Shown: positions 1-49,623 of the stretch, one piece after another
How positions within the stretch are numbered: the stretch's first letter is position 1
How the letters are laid out: every line of letters begins with the position of its first letter
Source of the DNA: a virus
Strand: one strand, 5' to 3'
IMG/VR virus record: IMGVR_UViG_3300008261_000125
Coordinates: 31,568 to 95,567 of that record
DNA length: 64,000 nt
Program-made: the position numbers and the translations under genes
The notes under the pieces: generated by a model
What the model was told of the DNA's origin: nothing
Database searches by the model: none
Seen by the model: only the letters and a program-made list of their open reading frames with translations

Positions 1-3000
1 GATTAGTAGAAGGATCCTCATAAGATTGACTTATTACATAAACTCCATCATCAATTTTAGATACATAAGGTTTATCAAACAAGTAAGTATCTTTACCAGT
101 AGCATCTGCTATTAATTGATTAACTGATCTTTTATAGCTAATACCTCTACCTTTAAGTCTATTGTTTTCAGTTTGATTATTTTGTTTAAAGAACTCATAA
201 AATCCTTCTAGTACCATGTTAGCTTTAGACTCATTTTTATTTAAGAATGTATAGAATGCTTCAGAAGCTTTTTCCATTACAGGTCTATATCTATCATAAG
301 GCATGATACTGTTTAATGAAAATTCACTAGAATCCATACCACTCTGTAGGAAAGCAATCATAGGTAACTGAGCAAAGAACTCACTAATATATGCATTAGC
401 TTGTGCTCTATTAGCTGTTTTCTCAGACACTTTCATTTCTTTAGGATTAGCTAACTTAAGCCACTCATTATAGTATTCTTCACTCAAGTTTTCATCTAAC
501 TCAGTTAAGTTTTTAATCTTAAAGTTAGTTCTTGACATGTGGTTCTTTTTACTACTTATAGAAGATGCAGAAAATTGTCTAACTAAATCAAATTGAAGTT
601 TTAATTCAGGATAGCTTTCAATAATACTAATTAGTTTTCTAGCTGTAGTATGCTCACCAGATCTGAATAACTCATAGTTATTATAAGTATTACTTAATGC
701 TTCATGCATTAATACATACTCATAAACTATTTTGTTTAATCTATTTGTATAATCTTCTTGACTTTCACCTTCTCTTTTAACAAATAAACTAACCCCACTA
801 TTTACAAGTCTGTTTTTAGCACTTTGAAATTCTTTTGTTCCTAATAAAGATTCTAAACTTTTTATCTTTCTTAAATATTCTCTTTCTAAACTGAACTCAA
901 TAAATGATTCAACATCATTTTGATTAAATGCAGATGGATGAATATAAAATAATCCTCTTCTTAAATAAGCTTCATCAGATTTAGAACTAGATAAGTGATT
1001 TTCATTAGCAAAATCACTTCTTAATTGCTCAATACTTTTAACAGGACTGTTCTCATTAAGTAATTCACTAATAGGAGTTTGTTTGTATTCACTAGCACCT
1101 TGTTTATATTGTTTAAGAACATTAGTAAATATGTATAAACTTAAAGCATTTTTAAATCTGTTAATAAATGTTTCTTCATCTAAACCAGTTTCTTGTTTTA
1201 GAATAGCTCTTTCAATTGGATTCTCTAAAGTTTTTATTAAGAATTTATTTACTAAATCATTATCCCTTGTAGCAAATAAGTTTTTACCAAATAATGCTCT
1301 AGAAAATTCTTGAATAAAGAATGATGATATAGCACTCTCTTCTTTGAAATGAACTTTAAGAGAAGAATCTAATGTTTTAAACTTATCAATTTTTTCAATG
1401 TCATGTATTTTAGCTTGAGCTGCAAAGTTATCAACTGCTGATTCTGTATCTACATTAAGATATCCTTTAAGGTTATCAAACTCTTCAATTAAATCTTCAA
1501 TATAAAAATACTGTAATAAACCAGCTATTTGTTCTTTATTAAATTTAAATGATTGTTTTGCTACTTCTTTTAAAGATTCTTTACTAAAAGATACATCTTT
1601 ATATCTTGTATTTAATATTTTATAAAATCCAGCAATATTATTTTTTAATTGATTTCCATCAAGATCTACCATTACTCCTTTAAGTAATTCTTTTCTTGCT
1701 TTATTTTTAGCAGAAGTAGTTGTATTTCTATGTTTAGGACCATAGATTATTTTTGCTAAAGGTGATTTATAATTTATCTTAGATTCAACATATTTTCTAA
1801 TCATAGGATTACTTACAAAATACGCTATATCCTCTATAGGAACACCTGCTTGTAATAAGAATAATGTTTTAGGAATTACTTCCATGTTACCTTGTAAGTA
1901 ACTAATCCATGCATCTTTACCAACATCCACAGCACCATTCATCAATTGAGATAAAATATCAGCTATATTATTAATTTTTTCAGCATCTGTTTTATTAGAT
2001 AAAGAAATAACTTCAATCTCTTTTAATGTTTTACTATCAATTTCTTTAGTTTTATTATAATTAAGTCTTAGTTTAATTGGAACTTTTACAGGTGATAAAA
2101 CTTCACTATCACTATAGTATGGATTTTCTACTTCAAATGAATAATTCATTTTAGCACCAGCCATAGTTAACATATTAGCAAATGTATTATGTAAAGTAAT
2201 AAGTCCTAAAATGTTTTTACCTGTAATATTATCTTGTTGTTTTTTAAGATTGTAAGCATACTCAGTCATTTTAGTAGGACTCACTCCACCACCTGGAGTT
2301 GATTCTCCAGTTTTAATAGATTTAGTATGATCAACTTCATTATCTGCTTTTTGAATATCTTTTTTGAGTGTATTAGATAAAGGTTTAGTTAAATGAGTAT
2401 CATTAGGTTGCATTAATGAGAAAGCCATCTCTGGCATTTCCATAACCCCAATAATATTATCTATAAATTTATTTTGAATAGCAGCAGTAAAGTTTCTCTT
2501 ATGTTCTTTTAAATTAGAAAGTTCATTATAAGCTCTACTTAATTCACTATCTTTTGATATTAATTCAGTAATTAAATTTTCAATTTCAGGATATTTTTCT
2601 GAATCAAATCCTTTAATTTGTTTAGATAAAATTTGATAAGATTCTGGAAGATTCTTTTTAATAAACTCTTGTTCCTTTGGATTACTTAAAGTTTTTAATA
2701 ACTCTTCATTATTATAAGTAGTATAAGCAAAGAACTTTTCTTTAACAAGTCTTTTATGTTTACTTTCTTTTTTAATACTATTTCTAAAGTCATCAAGATC
2801 TTCTTTAATAGTTAATTTATCAGCTTTTAAATCTTTTAATTTAGTTTTTAATTCTTGAATTTTAGCATCTAATTCTTCTGGTGTTTTATAAGTATCACCT
2901 GCAGATGCTGGTAAGAATTCATGTATTTGAACAAACTCAACTGAGTTAGGTCCTTGTGTAGGAATCCTTACACCAGTCATTCTAATAGAGTTTTCATTTT

Positions 3001-6000
3001 CTTTTAACCAAGCTTCATTCTTAATCATTTCATTAAGTCTTATGAAACTTGCATCATAGTCTAATACATATTTAATCTCAGATTCTGTATCAGGGTTCTT
3101 TACATAAACAGCTACTTTATCTGTAGTCTTTTTACCATTAACATAGTAATTAGTAGAGAATAGATTTTGATAGTTATCTGTTAAGGCAACTTTAACCTTT
3201 GCACCTATAGTCTCTTTACTACCATTTGTACTAACAATATATCCACTTAAACCATTAGTACCAAAGTCATCATATTCTTTTGTTTGTTCAATAGTAGGTT
3301 TTTTAAATGATTGTGTAAGAGCAGAAGAAACTTGTACTAAAGGTTCACCTTTAATTTTAAGTTTAATCAATCTATTATTAATAACAGACATTAAAAGTTT
3401 TTCAAGTCTAGCAGCTTGAGGACTTAAACTTAAATCAATTTTCTTGTTAGAACTATATTGAACAAAGTCTATTTCATGATCACTATATCCTTGACTTTTT
3501 AATATATCAACAACATAAGTAATCATGTCATCAATATTACCTTCTGGTAAACCATTTACTTCAGTCCAACCCATTTCTTCTAATAGGTCTTTTCTCATGT
3601 ACTCAGTTAACCTTTTAAGTTGCTTATATACTTGTTGTGTATTTTTATAAGCATTACTGTTTTTTAGCTTTTCAGCTTTAGTTAAACTGTTCCATTCCTC
3701 TTTAGTACCTTTATAATCTATAGGGACACCATTATCAAATAACCCAACATTAAACACTTTACGTAACTGAGTAGATAAAACACTCTTTCCTTTAAAGTAT
3801 TTATTAACTTCTGTTTGATTTTTTAAGTATTCAAAGTAAATAGGATTAGGAGTAAAGTTAATATCTTGATATTCTTTGATATTACTTGTATCACCTTCAT
3901 AAATACTATCACCATTAGTTTTGTCATCAGCTCTTAAGTAAGATCTCTTAGCTCCAGAATCAAATAATGCATAGTCAATGTTTTGAGCCATCATAGCTAA
4001 GTGCATTTTTTCTAAAGGTAATCCTTTAATTACACTAGGAATTAATGGTAATAAACTGAATTTATCAATACTTTGTATAGGATAGTTCTTTAATTCAGTT
4101 ACTAATGGTCCTGCATACTGTAATTTATATACTGGGAATAAATCAGTTAACTCTTCAGGTGTAAGACTTTCTCCTCTAAGTTCTTTTTGGTAAGCAGCTT
4201 CTTGTTGTTCTGTCCAACTATTTTCAAGATTTTTTAAGATTCTATATGAGTCAAATGATATCCATCCTTGACCATCACCATCTTTAATTCCTGTATATGG
4301 TTGTAATAAACCTCCAGTAATATTAGTTTCAGAACCACCTTTACCATATAAAGCTTCGTTAATATCACCTTGATATTTTTTTTCTTTTAACCAATGTCTG
4401 AACATTTCAGCATAATCATCTAAGTAAATACTATCTACTTTACTCTCTTTGATTATTGCTTTGTTACCTTTACCTGTATATAATCTTGACTCAGTTTGAT
4501 TTGGATCTCTTCTTACTAATTTACCACTCTTAACTAGACTATCTTCATATGGTCTTTTTACATGAGTATTAATAAATAGTTTTGCTAGTTCATCAGTAGG
4601 GAAGATTAGACCAGAAGAGTTATAAGTAGGAACCCTTTTTAAACTCTCGTCATTGATATGATTAAATTGAAATCCATCACCAAGCTCTAACAATATAACT
4701 TCATTAGCATGTAAAGAACTGTTTATAGCAAATGAATATAATAAAGCATCTTTAATACTATCAGTTGTAGCTACTTGTCCTTCAGTAAGATGTTCTTCAG
4801 CAATTGATCTTAAGAAATTAGGAACATTATTACCAAAAACTTTATTATAATTATTAACTTCTAATGATTTTTTTGAAGTTTCAAAATAGTTAATAATTTC
4901 TTTTTCAATTTCTTTTCTTAACTCAAGGTTTTTATTTAATAAACTATTTAAAGTAGTTTCATCATTTAACTGACTAGCATACTCATTAATAAGTTTATTT
5001 TTTAATTCACCATCTTTAGTATTTAAGATATCATCAAAATAATCAAACTTAATACCTTTTTCATAAAAGTCTTTAGCTTTAGAATAGTACTCTTTATTGT
5101 CTTTGATTTTTTGAATTCTTCTTAACTCACCTTCTAACTTAGGAATCATTATGTCCATTACTTTATCAAATGGATTATATCCTAATAAGTAATTACCATT
5201 AATATCTTTTAAGAAAGCTTGAGTATCTACATATAAATGGTTATTCTTTTTAAGTGAATAAGTGTTAAGTCTTTTTACTTTAACTCCAGTATAAGTACTT
5301 TTTTCACCATGTCTTACAGCTTCAATATATCCATCTTTTAACATAGAAGCAAAGTCAGTAATAAACTTATCAACTTTGGTCATTGAACCGTGTGAAACAC
5401 CATTACTATCATCAGATAAATCTTCATATTGAGAACCAGTTAAATCTACTAATTCAATACCATTAAGATTATTTCTCTTACCTGTAGTGTCAAATAATGA
5501 ATTCATTATAACACTACCTATAACATGAGGGTTGTTTTCTTTAACTAAATGAGGAACATAACTATAAGCACCACTTTTTAATTCATCTAAAGAACCTGCT
5601 TTCTTTAAAGCATATACAATTTGAGTTAAAGTTGTATTTAATGAGAATGCACTTTTCTTACTTTTTTCTGCAGTAAGTTTCATCCTACTAATGTTTTCTG
5701 TAGAGAACTCAGCATCAATCTTAGCTAATGTATTAACATTAGAAGCTTGATTATCTATAGCACCCTCAATAAACTCACCAGTAGCTAGTTCAATTTTAAT
5801 CTTATTATGTTTTTGACCTAAGAAATTAACTATGTTAGTAATAGGTAATAGGTTTCTTTTTGCTAAGATGTCTTTGTTAGCTTCTGCTAAACCAATAGCA
5901 TTAACAATATAATCAAAAGCTTTTGTAGTATCATCATTAATAGCTTTTCTAACATCATAGTTATCTTCTAAATACATACCTATTGCATTTAAGAATGGAA

Positions 6001-46495: not shown

Positions 46496-46945
46496 TTATT
46501 TTAAAAATAACAATTTATATTTAATTGAATTAATTGTTGATTTAATTGTGTCTAAATCATTCACTATTTCAGAGTAAGGCATTTTACCTTGTAATCCTGT
46601 AACCATTTGGTACATTTCTCTTAAATAAGCTAATGCTTCAGGTACACTATTTAATGTTCTTGGAGCTACATCTTTGTATTCCAATAATTTTTCAGTTGCT
46701 CCTTGGAATCCTTCAGCTAATGCATCAGCATGATCTGGTAATGCATCATATAATTCATTCAAAGCTTTATGAGATGCAAATGATCCTGGACCAGAAACTT
46801 TCAAATGAAGTTTGTGGATGGCAGTTGCAGCATTCATTAACTCTGATACACATGCTGCAGTCATTGTATCCAATCCTCCTGTAGAGGGAGCACTGTAGTT
46901 GGCAGCTGAACCACCATCTCTTTTTAAAAATCTTTTTGCTTCCAT
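46496..46945 (-). CDS. Dps/ferritin-like four-helix protein, 149 aa
   Basis: The segment AIHKLHLKVSGPGSFASHKALNELYDALPDHADALAEGFQG (residues about 42-82) follows the Dps pattern: His near 44-47, GPGSF, H59, D74 and E78 match the ferroxidase-site positions of Dps (the usual Trp after the first His is replaced). It resembles a phage family of unknown function I recall as ferritin-like. The N-terminal 25 residues are a basic, Gly/Ser-rich arm (KRFLKRDGGSAANYSAP), reminiscent of DNA-binding Dps tails. It lies between ring-protein and major virion genes, so it may be a virion or DNA-associated protein, or a helical connector with accidental similarity. Confidence 0.6.
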   Translation of the reverse strand: MEAKRFLKRDGGSAANYSAPSTGGLDTMTAACVSELMNAATAIHKLHLKVSGPGSFASHKALNELYDALPDHADALAEGFQGATEKLLEYKDVAPRTLNSVPEALAYLREMYQMVTGLQGKMPYSEIVNDLDTIKSTINSIKYKLLFLK

Positions 46946-46953
46946 TATATAAT

Positions 46954-47655
46954 TTAGTTATTATTTTCTACTGTTTGTGTCATTCTTTGATATTGGTTCA
47001 TTGATTCAATATCACCTGCTAATATTTTAACTGCTTCATCTATAAACAACTCAACTAAATCATCTTTAAATTCTGATTCAGTATCTACTGTTGGTGTTAC
47101 ATTAGTGTAAGGGTTGGTTACACCAGCTATTTGAATATATCTAGGTTGTCTGTAATAGTAAAGAGTTGCCTCACTTACATCAAACAGGTTATTAGTATAT
47201 ATCTGTATTTGGTTATTTGATATGGTAGCAAATGTTTCAGCCCACTCAAAGCTAGGTTGTTTATTTTTATCTCTAAGAAGTTGATCCACATTGGCTACTT
47301 CTCCTAAGTAAACCACCATTGGTTTAGATTCACAACAATCACTTTTAGCTTTTGCAGAAAGTCTTTTCCATTGTAGGTAATTAGTAGGGAAGTTGGTAGT
47401 CTCAAAGTATGTTTGCTTATCAGCCATTTTTAAATTAAGTGGAGTAAGCAACACTTGTAAATCATCTATTCTTCTAGTAGATTGTTCATCACCTTCCTTG
47501 GTAATATTAGTACCATGAAGGTTTCTTCTACACCAATCAACTTGACCTTTATTAAAAGCTTCAGTTATTTGCCAAGCTTCTATGTTATCATAATCGTTTG
47601 AGGAGAGTTTATTTAAGCGGTTTTTCACTTTAATTAGTATAGCTGAATTAAGCAT
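46954..47655 (-). CDS. Head-tail connector / ring protein, 233 aa
   Basis: An N-terminal helical part (LIKVKNRLNKLSSNDYDNIEAWQITEAFNKGQVDWCRRN), a beta-rich middle with ATLYYYRQPRYIQIAG, and a C-terminal helix (FKDDLVELFIDEAVKILAGDIESMNQYQR) match the plan of connector and ring proteins of Bacteroidota podophages. Its first eight residues, MLNSAILI, are also the first eight of the HNH gene just upstream, whose stop overlaps this start by 8 nt. It is therefore intact but has a re-created beginning. It likely forms a dodecameric ring below the portal. Confidence 0.65.
   Translation of the reverse strand: MLNSAILIKVKNRLNKLSSNDYDNIEAWQITEAFNKGQVDWCRRNLHGTNITKEGDEQSTRRIDDLQVLLTPLNLKMADKQTYFETTNFPTNYLQWKRLSAKAKSDCCESKPMVVYLGEVANVDQLLRDKNKQPSFEWAETFATISNNQIQIYTNNLFDVSEATLYYYRQPRYIQIAGVTNPYTNVTPTVDTESEFKDDLVELFIDEAVKILAGDIESMNQYQRMTQTVENNN
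47645..47655 (-). other. Re-created gene start, downstream copy at the HNH insertion
   Basis: The first eight codons of the ring-protein gene and the first eight codons of the HNH gene encode the same peptide MLNSAILI, but differ at several third positions. This marks the border of the HNH insertion. The upstream copy lies at 48131-48154. Confidence 0.8.
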
Positions 47656-48154
47656 TGTTTAAATAAGTTATAAGGTTTAATAATGTGTCTTTATTATCTT
47701 CAATCATTCCTAAAGCTGTATTACATTTAGTACATAACAAACCTCTTACTTTACCTGTAGTATGACAATGATCTACACATAAATCACTTTTTAAAATAGA
47801 CCTATGATTCTTACAACCTAAGCAACACCCTTCTTGTTTTTCAAACATTAAAGAATATTCTTCCAAAGTTATACCATAAATTGCTTTTAAATGAGGTTTA
47901 GTTTCTTTTACTTTTAACCATCTTTCTTTATTATAAGCTTTTGTTTTTTCTTTATTATTAATTAAATATTGTTTTCTGGTTTCACTTTTACCAAACTTTG
48001 TAGCTCTTGCTTTATATGTATCTATATTAGCATAGTAATGAGCTTTTTTATAAGCTGCAGCTTTTTCTTTATTTCTATGATACCATTCTAGAGATCTACT
48101 TTTTTTAGGAATAGACTCTGCTGGATTAGTTATGAGAATAGCTGAATTTAACAT
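47648..48154 (-). CDS. HNH homing endonuclease of the endonuclease VII type
   Basis: A 168-residue protein with a basic Tyr/Lys-rich N-terminal part and a C-terminal endonuclease VII-like HNH core: C111 and C114 (CCLGC), the DHCH motif at 128-131 (LCVDHCHTTGKVRGLLC), and C141 and C144 (CTKCN), followed by an N-A-L-G helix. The paired CxxC motifs bind a structural zinc and DHCH carries the catalytic His. It begins with MLNSAILI, a copy of the start of the next gene, differing at third codon positions. It is a free-standing mobile gene between structural genes; no intron or intein borders are seen. Confidence 0.9.
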   Translation of the reverse strand: MLNSAILITNPAESIPKKSRSLEWYHRNKEKAAAYKKAHYYANIDTYKARATKFGKSETRKQYLINNKEKTKAYNKERWLKVKETKPHLKAIYGITLEEYSLMFEKQEGCCLGCKNHRSILKSDLCVDHCHTTGKVRGLLCTKCNTALGMIEDNKDTLLNLITYLNNA

Positions 48155-48157
48155 TTG

Positions 48158-48325
48158 TTATTTTTTCTTTTTAGCCTTAGCTTTTGGATTCATAAATTCT
48201 TGTACAACTTCAACTCTAGGTTGTTTCTTTTTAGGAGATCCCTCTACAGTTTTGTTATATATACCTACCATTTTTTTATCAGTAGATAAGATTGATTTTC
48301 CTTTTTTAGGTGCTGTCTTTTTCAT
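48158..48325 (-). CDS. Tiny lysine-rich protein, 55 aa
   Basis: ATG 48325 to TAA 48158. Runs of Lys occur at the start (MKKTAPKKGKS), the middle (SPKKKQPRVEVVQEF) and the end (PKAKAKKKK). The composition is that of a nucleic-acid-binding or capsid-interior peptide. It is one of six small basic genes in this stretch. No fold is recognised. Confidence 0.75.
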   Translation of the reverse strand: MKKTAPKKGKSILSTDKKMVGIYNKTVEGSPKKKQPRVEVVQEFMNPKAKAKKKK

Positions 48326-48331
48326 ATTATT

Positions 48332-48577
48332 TTAGCATTTCCACTTTCTAAGTGATTTGTTTATTCTTGAATTAGGATCATTAGCTGTTTTACTAGAAGT
48401 AAGTTTCTTTTTCATTCCTTCCATTCTAGCACAAAAAGATTTCTTTCTAGGTCCTCCTTCAGGTTGAGGAGCTTTAATATCATGACCTGCAGCTTTAAGA
48501 GAAGCTCTCCCTTTAGCATTTAAACCTCCACTTGGAGATTTACCTTCTTTTCTTTGCCATGCTGGACTCTTTGCCAT
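48332..48577 (-). CDS. Small conserved basic phage protein, 81 aa
   Basis: The sequence MAKSPAWQRKEGKSPSGGLNAKGRASLKAAG, then KAPQPEGGPRKKSFCARMEGMKKKL and SRINKSLRKWKC is a family I recognise from many unrelated tailed phages (a DUF found near structural genes; I recall DUF6321). The PSGGLN, RKKSFCARM and INKSLRKW blocks are the conserved cores. Its function is unknown; the strong positive charge suggests DNA contact in the head. It ends 6 nt before the 55-residue gene and starts 1 nt after the 52-residue gene. Confidence 0.85.
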   Translation of the reverse strand: MAKSPAWQRKEGKSPSGGLNAKGRASLKAAGHDIKAPQPEGGPRKKSFCARMEGMKKKLTSSKTANDPNSRINKSLRKWKC

Positions 48578-48578
48578 A

Positions 48579-48737
48579 TTATCCTTTTTTTGCTTTAGCC
48601 ATTTTCTTAAAAGTTAATGCTAATGCTTTAGCTTTACCTGTGCAACCTGGTTTAGTAATAGGAGTACATTTACCTTCAGTACCTCTTCTTTTTATAGAGG
48701 CTGTAGCTTTTTGTATCCAGTTTTTATCTTTAGCCAT
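48579..48737 (-). CDS. Small basic phage protein, 52 aa
   Basis: ATG 48737 to TAA 48579. MAKDKNWIQKATASIKRRGTEGK is followed by CTPITKPGCTGKAKALALTFKKMAKAKK. The opening KNWIQKA resembles a class of small phage proteins often encoded next to the 81-residue family. Two Cys residues frame TPITKPG. Strongly basic, probably DNA-associated or virion-internal. It abuts both neighbours. Confidence 0.75.
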   Translation of the reverse strand: MAKDKNWIQKATASIKRRGTEGKCTPITKPGCTGKAKALALTFKKMAKAKKG

Positions 48738-48739
48738 TG

Positions 48740-49258
48740 TTATTTCTTTTTAGCTGTTTTAGCTGATTGAACAAATGCTTTAGAAGTTGGGGCACCAGCA
48801 GCTCCAGGTTTTCTCATTTTCTCCCCATAGTTAGCTTTGTTAGCTGCATCTGATGCTGCAGATCTAGCTGATTGAACAGCTCTTTCTTTTTCATAAGCTC
48901 TAACATTAGAAGGTCTTTTAGTAGCTCTAGCTGCAGCTTCCATTTTAGGTTTTATGTTAGAACCTCGTAACTCTTCAGGACTAAATTTAGATTTAGCTTG
49001 AGCCATATATTGAGCACCTGCTGTACTATCAGATACTGCTTTGCTCATTCTTGGTGATATAGGAGCTATTGGTTTTACTGGAGCTGGTGTTGTAGCCATT
49101 CCTACTTGTGCTTTTTTTAATGCAGATTTCTTGGCAAGTGAATCTCCTATAGCACGAGCTTTTTCAATTTTATTTGATGCAGCTTTAAATGCTGAATCAT
49201 AAGATGATTTCTTAACTTTTGTTGAACCACCTGTTTGTTTTTTAGCTAATTTTCTCAT
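48740..49258 (-). CDS. Histone-like Ala/Lys/Ser-rich protein, 172 aa
   Basis: Low-complexity, very basic protein (MRKLAKKQTGGSTKVKKSSYD, repeated AARATK/ARSAASDAAN segments, ending SAKTAKKK). The composition resembles histone H1 tails or packaged nucleoid proteins. Residues 45-52 (LKKAQVGM) carry the KAQVG motif also found in the 1431-residue cargo protein. It is likely packaged with DNA or acts in head assembly. No domain is recognised. Confidence 0.75.
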   Translation of the reverse strand: MRKLAKKQTGGSTKVKKSSYDSAFKAASNKIEKARAIGDSLAKKSALKKAQVGMATTPAPVKPIAPISPRMSKAVSDSTAGAQYMAQAKSKFSPEELRGSNIKPKMEAAARATKRPSNVRAYEKERAVQSARSAASDAANKANYGEKMRKPGAAGAPTSKAFVQSAKTAKKK

Positions 49259-49270
49259 AATATTTTTATA

Positions 49271-49447
49271 TTAACATGATTTTTTAGAACCACCCATTTT
49301 CATTTTAGCAGGTACTGCACCTTTAGGGGGAGTATTAACTTTACCAGATGGTTTAGCTTTAATACCTTTTTGTACTTTAGCAGTACCATTAGTACCACCT
49401 TGTTTACCTGTAGGTTTAGTAACTACTTTTGCTTTTATATCTTTCAT
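49271..49447 (-). CDS. Tiny basic Gly/Lys-rich protein, 58 aa
   Basis: ATG 49447 to TAA 49271. MKDIKAKVVTKPTGKQGGTNGTAKVQKGIKAK, then PSGKVNTPPKGAVPAK and MKMGGSKKSC. Disordered and basic, with GG and QKG motifs like those of the cargo proteins. It is codirectional with the other small genes and has a free C-terminal Cys. Confidence 0.7.
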   Translation of the reverse strand: MKDIKAKVVTKPTGKQGGTNGTAKVQKGIKAKPSGKVNTPPKGAVPAKMKMGGSKKSC

Positions 49448-49452
49448 GATTA

Positions 49453-49623
49453 TTATTTTTTTAATTTACCTGCTGGTACATTACAAGCTTCAATATTTTT
49501 TCCACCAGTATAACGAGTAGGGTTAGTTACTACAGTAACATTAGCATTTTTTCCTCCTGTGTATCTTGTAGGGTTTGTTACAACTTGAGGATAAGAGTTT
49601 GCGGTTTTCATTTGTCCAGCCAT
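49453..49623 (-). CDS. Tiny protein with a tandem VVTNPTRYTGGKN repeat, 56 aa
   Basis: ATG 49623 to TAA 49453; a second in-frame ATG lies four codons downstream. The 13-residue unit VVTNPTRYTGGKN occurs twice, separated by ANVT, with different codons in each copy. The copies are therefore old and the amino acids are under selection. The repeat suggests a small beta-hairpin that docks twice onto a repetitive surface such as a capsid. It is the first of the six small basic genes. Confidence 0.75.
   Translation of the reverse strand: MAGQMKTANSYPQVVTNPTRYTGGKNANVTVVTNPTRYTGGKNIEACNVPAGKLKK

Follow-up and report, generated by a model that had tools for sequence, protein, structure and literature searches.

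The window analysed here is a stretch of 64,000 nucleotides of the IMG/VR virus record IMGVR_UViG_3300008261_000125. A putative homing nuclease gene of the HNH type is located on its minus strand, at the start of a gene encoding a ring protein. The features of this locus are listed below, with the basis of each assignment in brackets.

48154..47648, minus strand: putative homing nuclease gene, HNH (Endonuclease VII family), family A, 168 aa (ORF; PF02945; PHROG endonuclease VII)
48131..48154, minus strand: upstream MLNSAILI copy, read as the native ring start captured by the HNH gene (empty relatives)
47654..47893, minus strand: EndoVII catalytic domain, HNH residues 88-167 (Pfam match to residues 88-167; structural model)
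47648..47655, minus strand: overlap of the HNH stop and the ring start, 8 nt, AATGCTTAA (sequence)
47655..46954, minus strand: target gene, encoding the ring (virion structural) protein, 233 aa (PHROG 29507 virion structural protein)
47632..47655, minus strand: replacement ring start MLNSAILI, silently different, read as borne by the element (L002 versus L004; families B and C)

A preliminary description of this DNA had stated that the HNH and ring genes open with the same peptide, that the two versions differ synonymously and that the genes overlap by 8 nt, and all three points were confirmed from the sequence. The HNH ORF begins with the codons ATG TTA AAT TCA GCT ATT CTC ATA and the ring ORF with ATG CTT AAT TCA GCT ATA CTA ATT, both encoding MLNSAILI; the two starts are identical at 19 of 24 nt and the five differences are silent. 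Since agreement at all seven of residues 2-8 is expected by chance at about 1e-7 per given ORF pair, and the next best agreement among all pairs of the 40 window ORFs of at least 80 aa was 3/7, the sharing of this peptide is not due to chance. An overlap of 7-8 nt between the HNH stop and the ring ATG is kept in all three HNH families described below (A, B and C), and it probably reflects translational coupling.

The HNH protein matched the Pfam family Endonuclease_7 (PF02945) with an E-value of 1.1e-23 and 83.3 bits (curated cut-off, 23.6), and it was the sole match to this family in the 95.6-kb contig. The catalytic DH.H region and the paired CxxC motifs that characterise the family are present, and residues D128, H129, H131, C111, C114, C141, C144 and N145 were invariant among the 25-30 aligned members. 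In the structural model the catalytic domain was predicted with pLDDT values above 90, and the captured residues 1-10 were predicted to be disordered. A Foldseek search with this model gave T4 EndoVII and Hpy99I as the best matches, both weak; the family match is clear by Pfam. The dN/dS ratio of the HNH gene was about 0.17-0.45 (against L040 and L002), and the nuclease is under purifying selection. GIY-YIG and HNH_3 domains were searched for within the contig and none was found. A group I intron or an intein was also considered and rejected, as the HNH insertion lacks the character of a spliced-out element. Splicing is not needed here, because the HNH ORF ends in the region of the ring start codon and the ring gene possesses a complete start of its own.

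With the product of 47655..46954, tblastn gave weak matches to a protein of phage csAssE-Sib that is annotated as ring protein, and to structural proteins of the Cellulophaga phages phi17:2 and phi4:1. The label "ring protein" fits this product, which is distantly related to the ring protein of crAss-like phages. Since the major capsid protein also matches csAssE-Sib and Cellulophaga phi17:2/phi4:1, the contig probably belongs to a distant crAss-like phage. A cultured relative bearing the element was not found, isolates giving only weak ring matches. Directly 3' of the ring gene (window positions 46496-46945) lies a DUF5856 gene; its ferritin-like match is weak, and PHROG assigns it as "starvation-inducible transcriptional regulator". 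Upstream of the HNH gene (48158-49623) there is a series of small lysine-rich genes to which no function was assigned; their set and order vary strongly among close relatives, and the position of the ring gene is constant.

Relatives of the ring gene were collected from IMG/VR and the HNH genes were searched for separately, which yielded 94 distinct ring loci. An HNH gene was present at the ring start in about 10 of them and absent (empty loci) in about 83, its presence being optional at one site among otherwise similar genomes, as in the near pair L002 (filled) and L004 (empty). This single gene start hosts three HNH families: family A (the window, L040 and L002/L003), family B (L027, L228/L148/L149 and the partial L151) and family C (L022, L200/L070, L221/L069, L073 and L071, with a frameshifted copy in L222/L072). 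For a common origin of the three families, the AU p value was 0.187. In families A and B the upstream copy forms the N-terminus of the nuclease, over about 8 and 11 codons, respectively. In family C it stands apart from the nuclease, as a leader of 19-20 codons whose stop lies within a few bases of the HNH start codon, the captured native part amounting to 18-19 codons. The fixed capture of eight codons given in the preliminary description must therefore be replaced by a length that differs from family to family.

This layout bears on the possibility that MLNSAILI is functional in both proteins, for instance as a localisation or binding tag, and is kept in the nuclease by selection on the peptide. 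Although the two peptides of the window are identical despite their silent differences, the family C nucleases do without the peptide, a stop codon terminating the native copy ahead of the HNH start codon, and residues 1-10 of the window's HNH protein are predicted to be disordered. A shared tag is consequently a very improbable explanation.

In order to establish which copy is native, both copies were compared with empty relatives. In L002, L022, L027, L073 and L200 the upstream copy matched empty ring sites. Upstream and downstream matches were 47 versus 36 of 51 nt in L022, 45 versus 36 in L200, 49 versus 37 in L073, and 32 versus 19 of 33 nt in L027. As the preliminary description had anticipated, relatives without the HNH gene have a single ring start, and this start matches the HNH-proximal copy: the upstream copy of L022 is identical to the ring start of the empty contigs L154/L157 across 56 nt, and that of L002 equals the empty start of L004 over the first 17 nt. 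The codon for Ser4 separates the two copies in the clade of families B and C. It is AGY in 62 of the 62 empty ring genes having Ser4, and each of the eight upstream copies uses AGT, whereas all seven replacement starts have TCN. As AGY cannot be converted into TCN by one silent mutation, the downstream start in these families is of separate origin.

The phages L022 (family C) and L027 (family B) are nearly identical, the 400 nt upstream and the native start being in agreement, and carry different HNH genes. Their ring genes differ at 23 of the first 90 nt and then at only 4 of 609 (99% identical; Fisher, 2.6e-18). Within one HNH family the downstream copies were closer to each other than the ring gene bodies (identity of 0.92 versus 0.75 for two B members). 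On these alignments, the replacement start is shown to move together with the element, and in families B and C the upstream copy is clearly indicated as the native start and the downstream copy as the re-spelled start of the element.

One alternative is a target duplication, in which a single HNH insertion had its first codons doubled by repair and the copies then drifted silently. It would account for two copies of similar length and for the few differences within family A. However, the downstream copies are far from the recipient's empty allele and the upstream copies near to it, the downstream serine codon class is absent from all empty loci of the clade, and L022 and L027 have different downstream copies on the same background. 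These comparisons already disfavour duplication for families B and C, and as an explanation of the whole it seems decidedly unlikely.

A second alternative is an ordinary intergenic homing gene, the foreign ring start being a co-converted flank of the donor whose re-spelling was not selected. Co-conversion of flanks is established for the free-standing nucleases of T4 (PMC2988022), and the family B replacement tract reaches about codon 30, beyond the 11-codon captured part, which counts against a replacement start carried as part of the element. Conversely, a second, native start remains upstream, which places the insertion point within the gene. Moreover, both junctions of family C coincide with the conserved KLD|S codons (nt 54-60), and the foreign tract stops at the insertion point. 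We regard co-conversion as unlikely; it differs from the element-borne replacement start mainly in whether the re-spelling is selected.

For family A, to which the window belongs, the best comparison is that of L002 with L004. Their ring genes are 98% identical, and the downstream start of L002 has four silent differences from L004 within the first 24 nt, versus 12 across the 666 nt that follow (p=0.0016). When all 24 nt are compared, both L002 copies match L004 at 20 positions, a tie that arises because the HNH side has its own ATTCTCATA. The window's upstream and downstream copies match the empty start of L005 at 23 and 20 of 24 nt, respectively, and that of L004 at 19 each. As the nearest empty relatives of the window are only 75-77% identical to it, its direction has to be read partly from its relatives. 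In family A the two starts differ silently to no greater extent than unrelated empty loci do, and this also counts against an element-borne start. Taken together, the single close pair L002/L004 supports the direction in family A moderately, and for the window itself the upstream copy is weakly indicated as the native one.

Two further loci of this type were observed. L040 (3001-3530) is an irregular family A member, in which the CTT codon found elsewhere in the downstream copy is upstream, and MLNQ takes the place of MLNS at the ring start; it counts against the element-borne start. L006 (4920-5011) lacks the HNH gene but retains about 20 nt from the tail of an HNH gene of the family A type, joined to an apparent DUF6321 gene start and located in front of a replacement-type ring start; this looks like a scar of element loss and speaks for the element-borne start.

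The comparison of relatives supports the proposal of the preliminary description that the HNH gene lies within the start of the ring gene, has appropriated the native start together with its leader and is followed by an intact replacement start. Its statement that the HNH gene copies the codons of its target has to be corrected: the HNH N-terminus is better read as what remains of the native start, and it is the replacement start that travels with the element. The arrangement is probably that of a homing element with two parts, an HNH nuclease gene of the EndoVII type and a replacement for the 5' end of the invaded gene. Homing is the best explanation because of the optional presence of the gene, its occurrence in different backgrounds and the EndoVII-type homing precedent F-CphI.

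We infer cutting, its position, homing and protection through re-spelling, and the process might run as follows. The nuclease would cut an empty ring gene within its first codons, near codon 8 in family A, at codon 11 or later in family B and at codons 18-19 in family C. Repair off an element-bearing phage would then insert the nuclease gene and the replacement start at the cut junction. The recipient's native start would stay upstream and drive the nuclease, either fused to it (A and B) or as a leader ending at the HNH start codon (C). The element's re-spelled start would join the remaining ring gene and restore it, coupled to the HNH stop codon. Owing to its different spelling, the replacement start is proposed to be a poor target and no rival to the native copy as left recombination partner; re-spelling would prevent re-cutting and would stop repair from pairing with the replacement start rather than with the native copy.

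The idea that EndoVII-type genes copy gene starts generally was rejected: among 77 distinct EndoVII-type ORFs, drawn from the loci fetched by that stage, N-terminal sharing of at least 7/10 residues was found only at the ring gene. Likewise, a 5' copy was sought in six phage isolates with EndoVII-type genes (L061-L066) and none was detected. Mirror cases were observed at 3' ends, at the following places.

L238-L246 at 2501-3070, L202:2231-2803, L214:2794-3366 and L156:1925-2344: HNH gene after the DUF6321 gene
L277 versus L280, and also L074, L081, L089 and L095 (marine contigs): endonuclease I-like gene and HNH gene

In the first case, found in related phages, the adjoining HNH gene finishes with the C-terminus of the DUF6321 gene itself (KWNC*), and the DUF6321 gene has another 3' end that hardly varies from phage to phage. 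The identity of the 84-nt 3' end of the DUF6321 gene was 0.86 among filled versus 0.66 among empty loci, and that of its 5' part was 0.56 and 0.55, respectively. In the marine contigs the HNH gene lies 3' of the endonuclease I-like gene, whose native end, ETLPEE.., also forms the end of the HNH gene. The near-identical L277 (empty) and L280 (filled) show the HNH gene ending in the native gene end, and six bases near the end of the L280 endonuclease I-like gene are changed. As the repeat does not differ between its two locations, this case may be a simple duplication. Whether EndoVII-type phage nucleases include a "terminus-replacing" class, which would invade the ends of conserved phage genes, take the native end and carry a re-spelled end as a rescue that also confers immunity on the allele, is to us an evenly balanced matter; such a class would be a recurrent home-and-rescue drive, acting at 5' ends (ring, three families) and at 3' ends (DUF6321, endonuclease I-like).

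If the proposed element is real, it would explain how a homing gene with neither intron nor intein can invade a presumably essential coding region, its own replacement end sparing the host, and it would provide a natural counterpart to engineered home-and-rescue drives. Sharp predictions would follow, namely that the cut site is the junction and that the replacement start is resistant. Gene starts in such phages may differ in history from the remainder of the gene, which affects phylogeny and start-site annotation.

The arrangement at the ring start is real, and its closest precedent is found in fungal mitochondrial mobile ORFs, which insert with foreign, largely silently different C-termini in Allomyces atp6 and in Glomus atp6, atp9, cox2 and nad3 (PMC3630166). 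In both systems an endonuclease ORF is accompanied by a foreign, largely silently different end with which the invaded gene is made whole again, and the native end persists next to the element and agrees with a close relative (PMC3630166). At the ring gene, this combination of a carried foreign end and a retained native end was found strongly in families B and C and moderately in A. The ring-start element works like these ORFs but is not a member of the group: theirs is the 3' end, in mitochondria, with a LAGLIDADG nuclease (Glomus atp6), and here it is the 5' end, in a phage genome, with an EndoVII-type nuclease. Within the open-access literature no phage precedent for replaced gene ends was found, subscription papers being outside the scope.

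Among phage systems of free-standing nucleases and intronless homing, the seg/mob enzymes of T4 cleave at sites hundreds to thousands of bp away from the genes encoding them (PMC2988022), and F-CphI of S-PM2 is an EndoVII-type homing precedent protected by an intron (PMC6083498). Like the gene studied here they are optional phage nuclease genes, and the EndoVII catalytic motif of F-CphI is the same; however, neither has been described with a replacement gene end (PMC2988022, PMC6083498). The synthetic home-and-rescue drive HomeR, a CRISPR-based, engineered system with a re-coded 3' end in Drosophila (PMC7968924), also places a nuclease element within an essential gene and supplies a re-coded end by which that gene is restored. 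HomeR is engineered, uses CRISPR and acts at a 3' end in Drosophila, whereas the present case is a natural one at the 5' end of a phage gene, and by analogy the ring-start element resembles a home-and-rescue design that occurs in nature.
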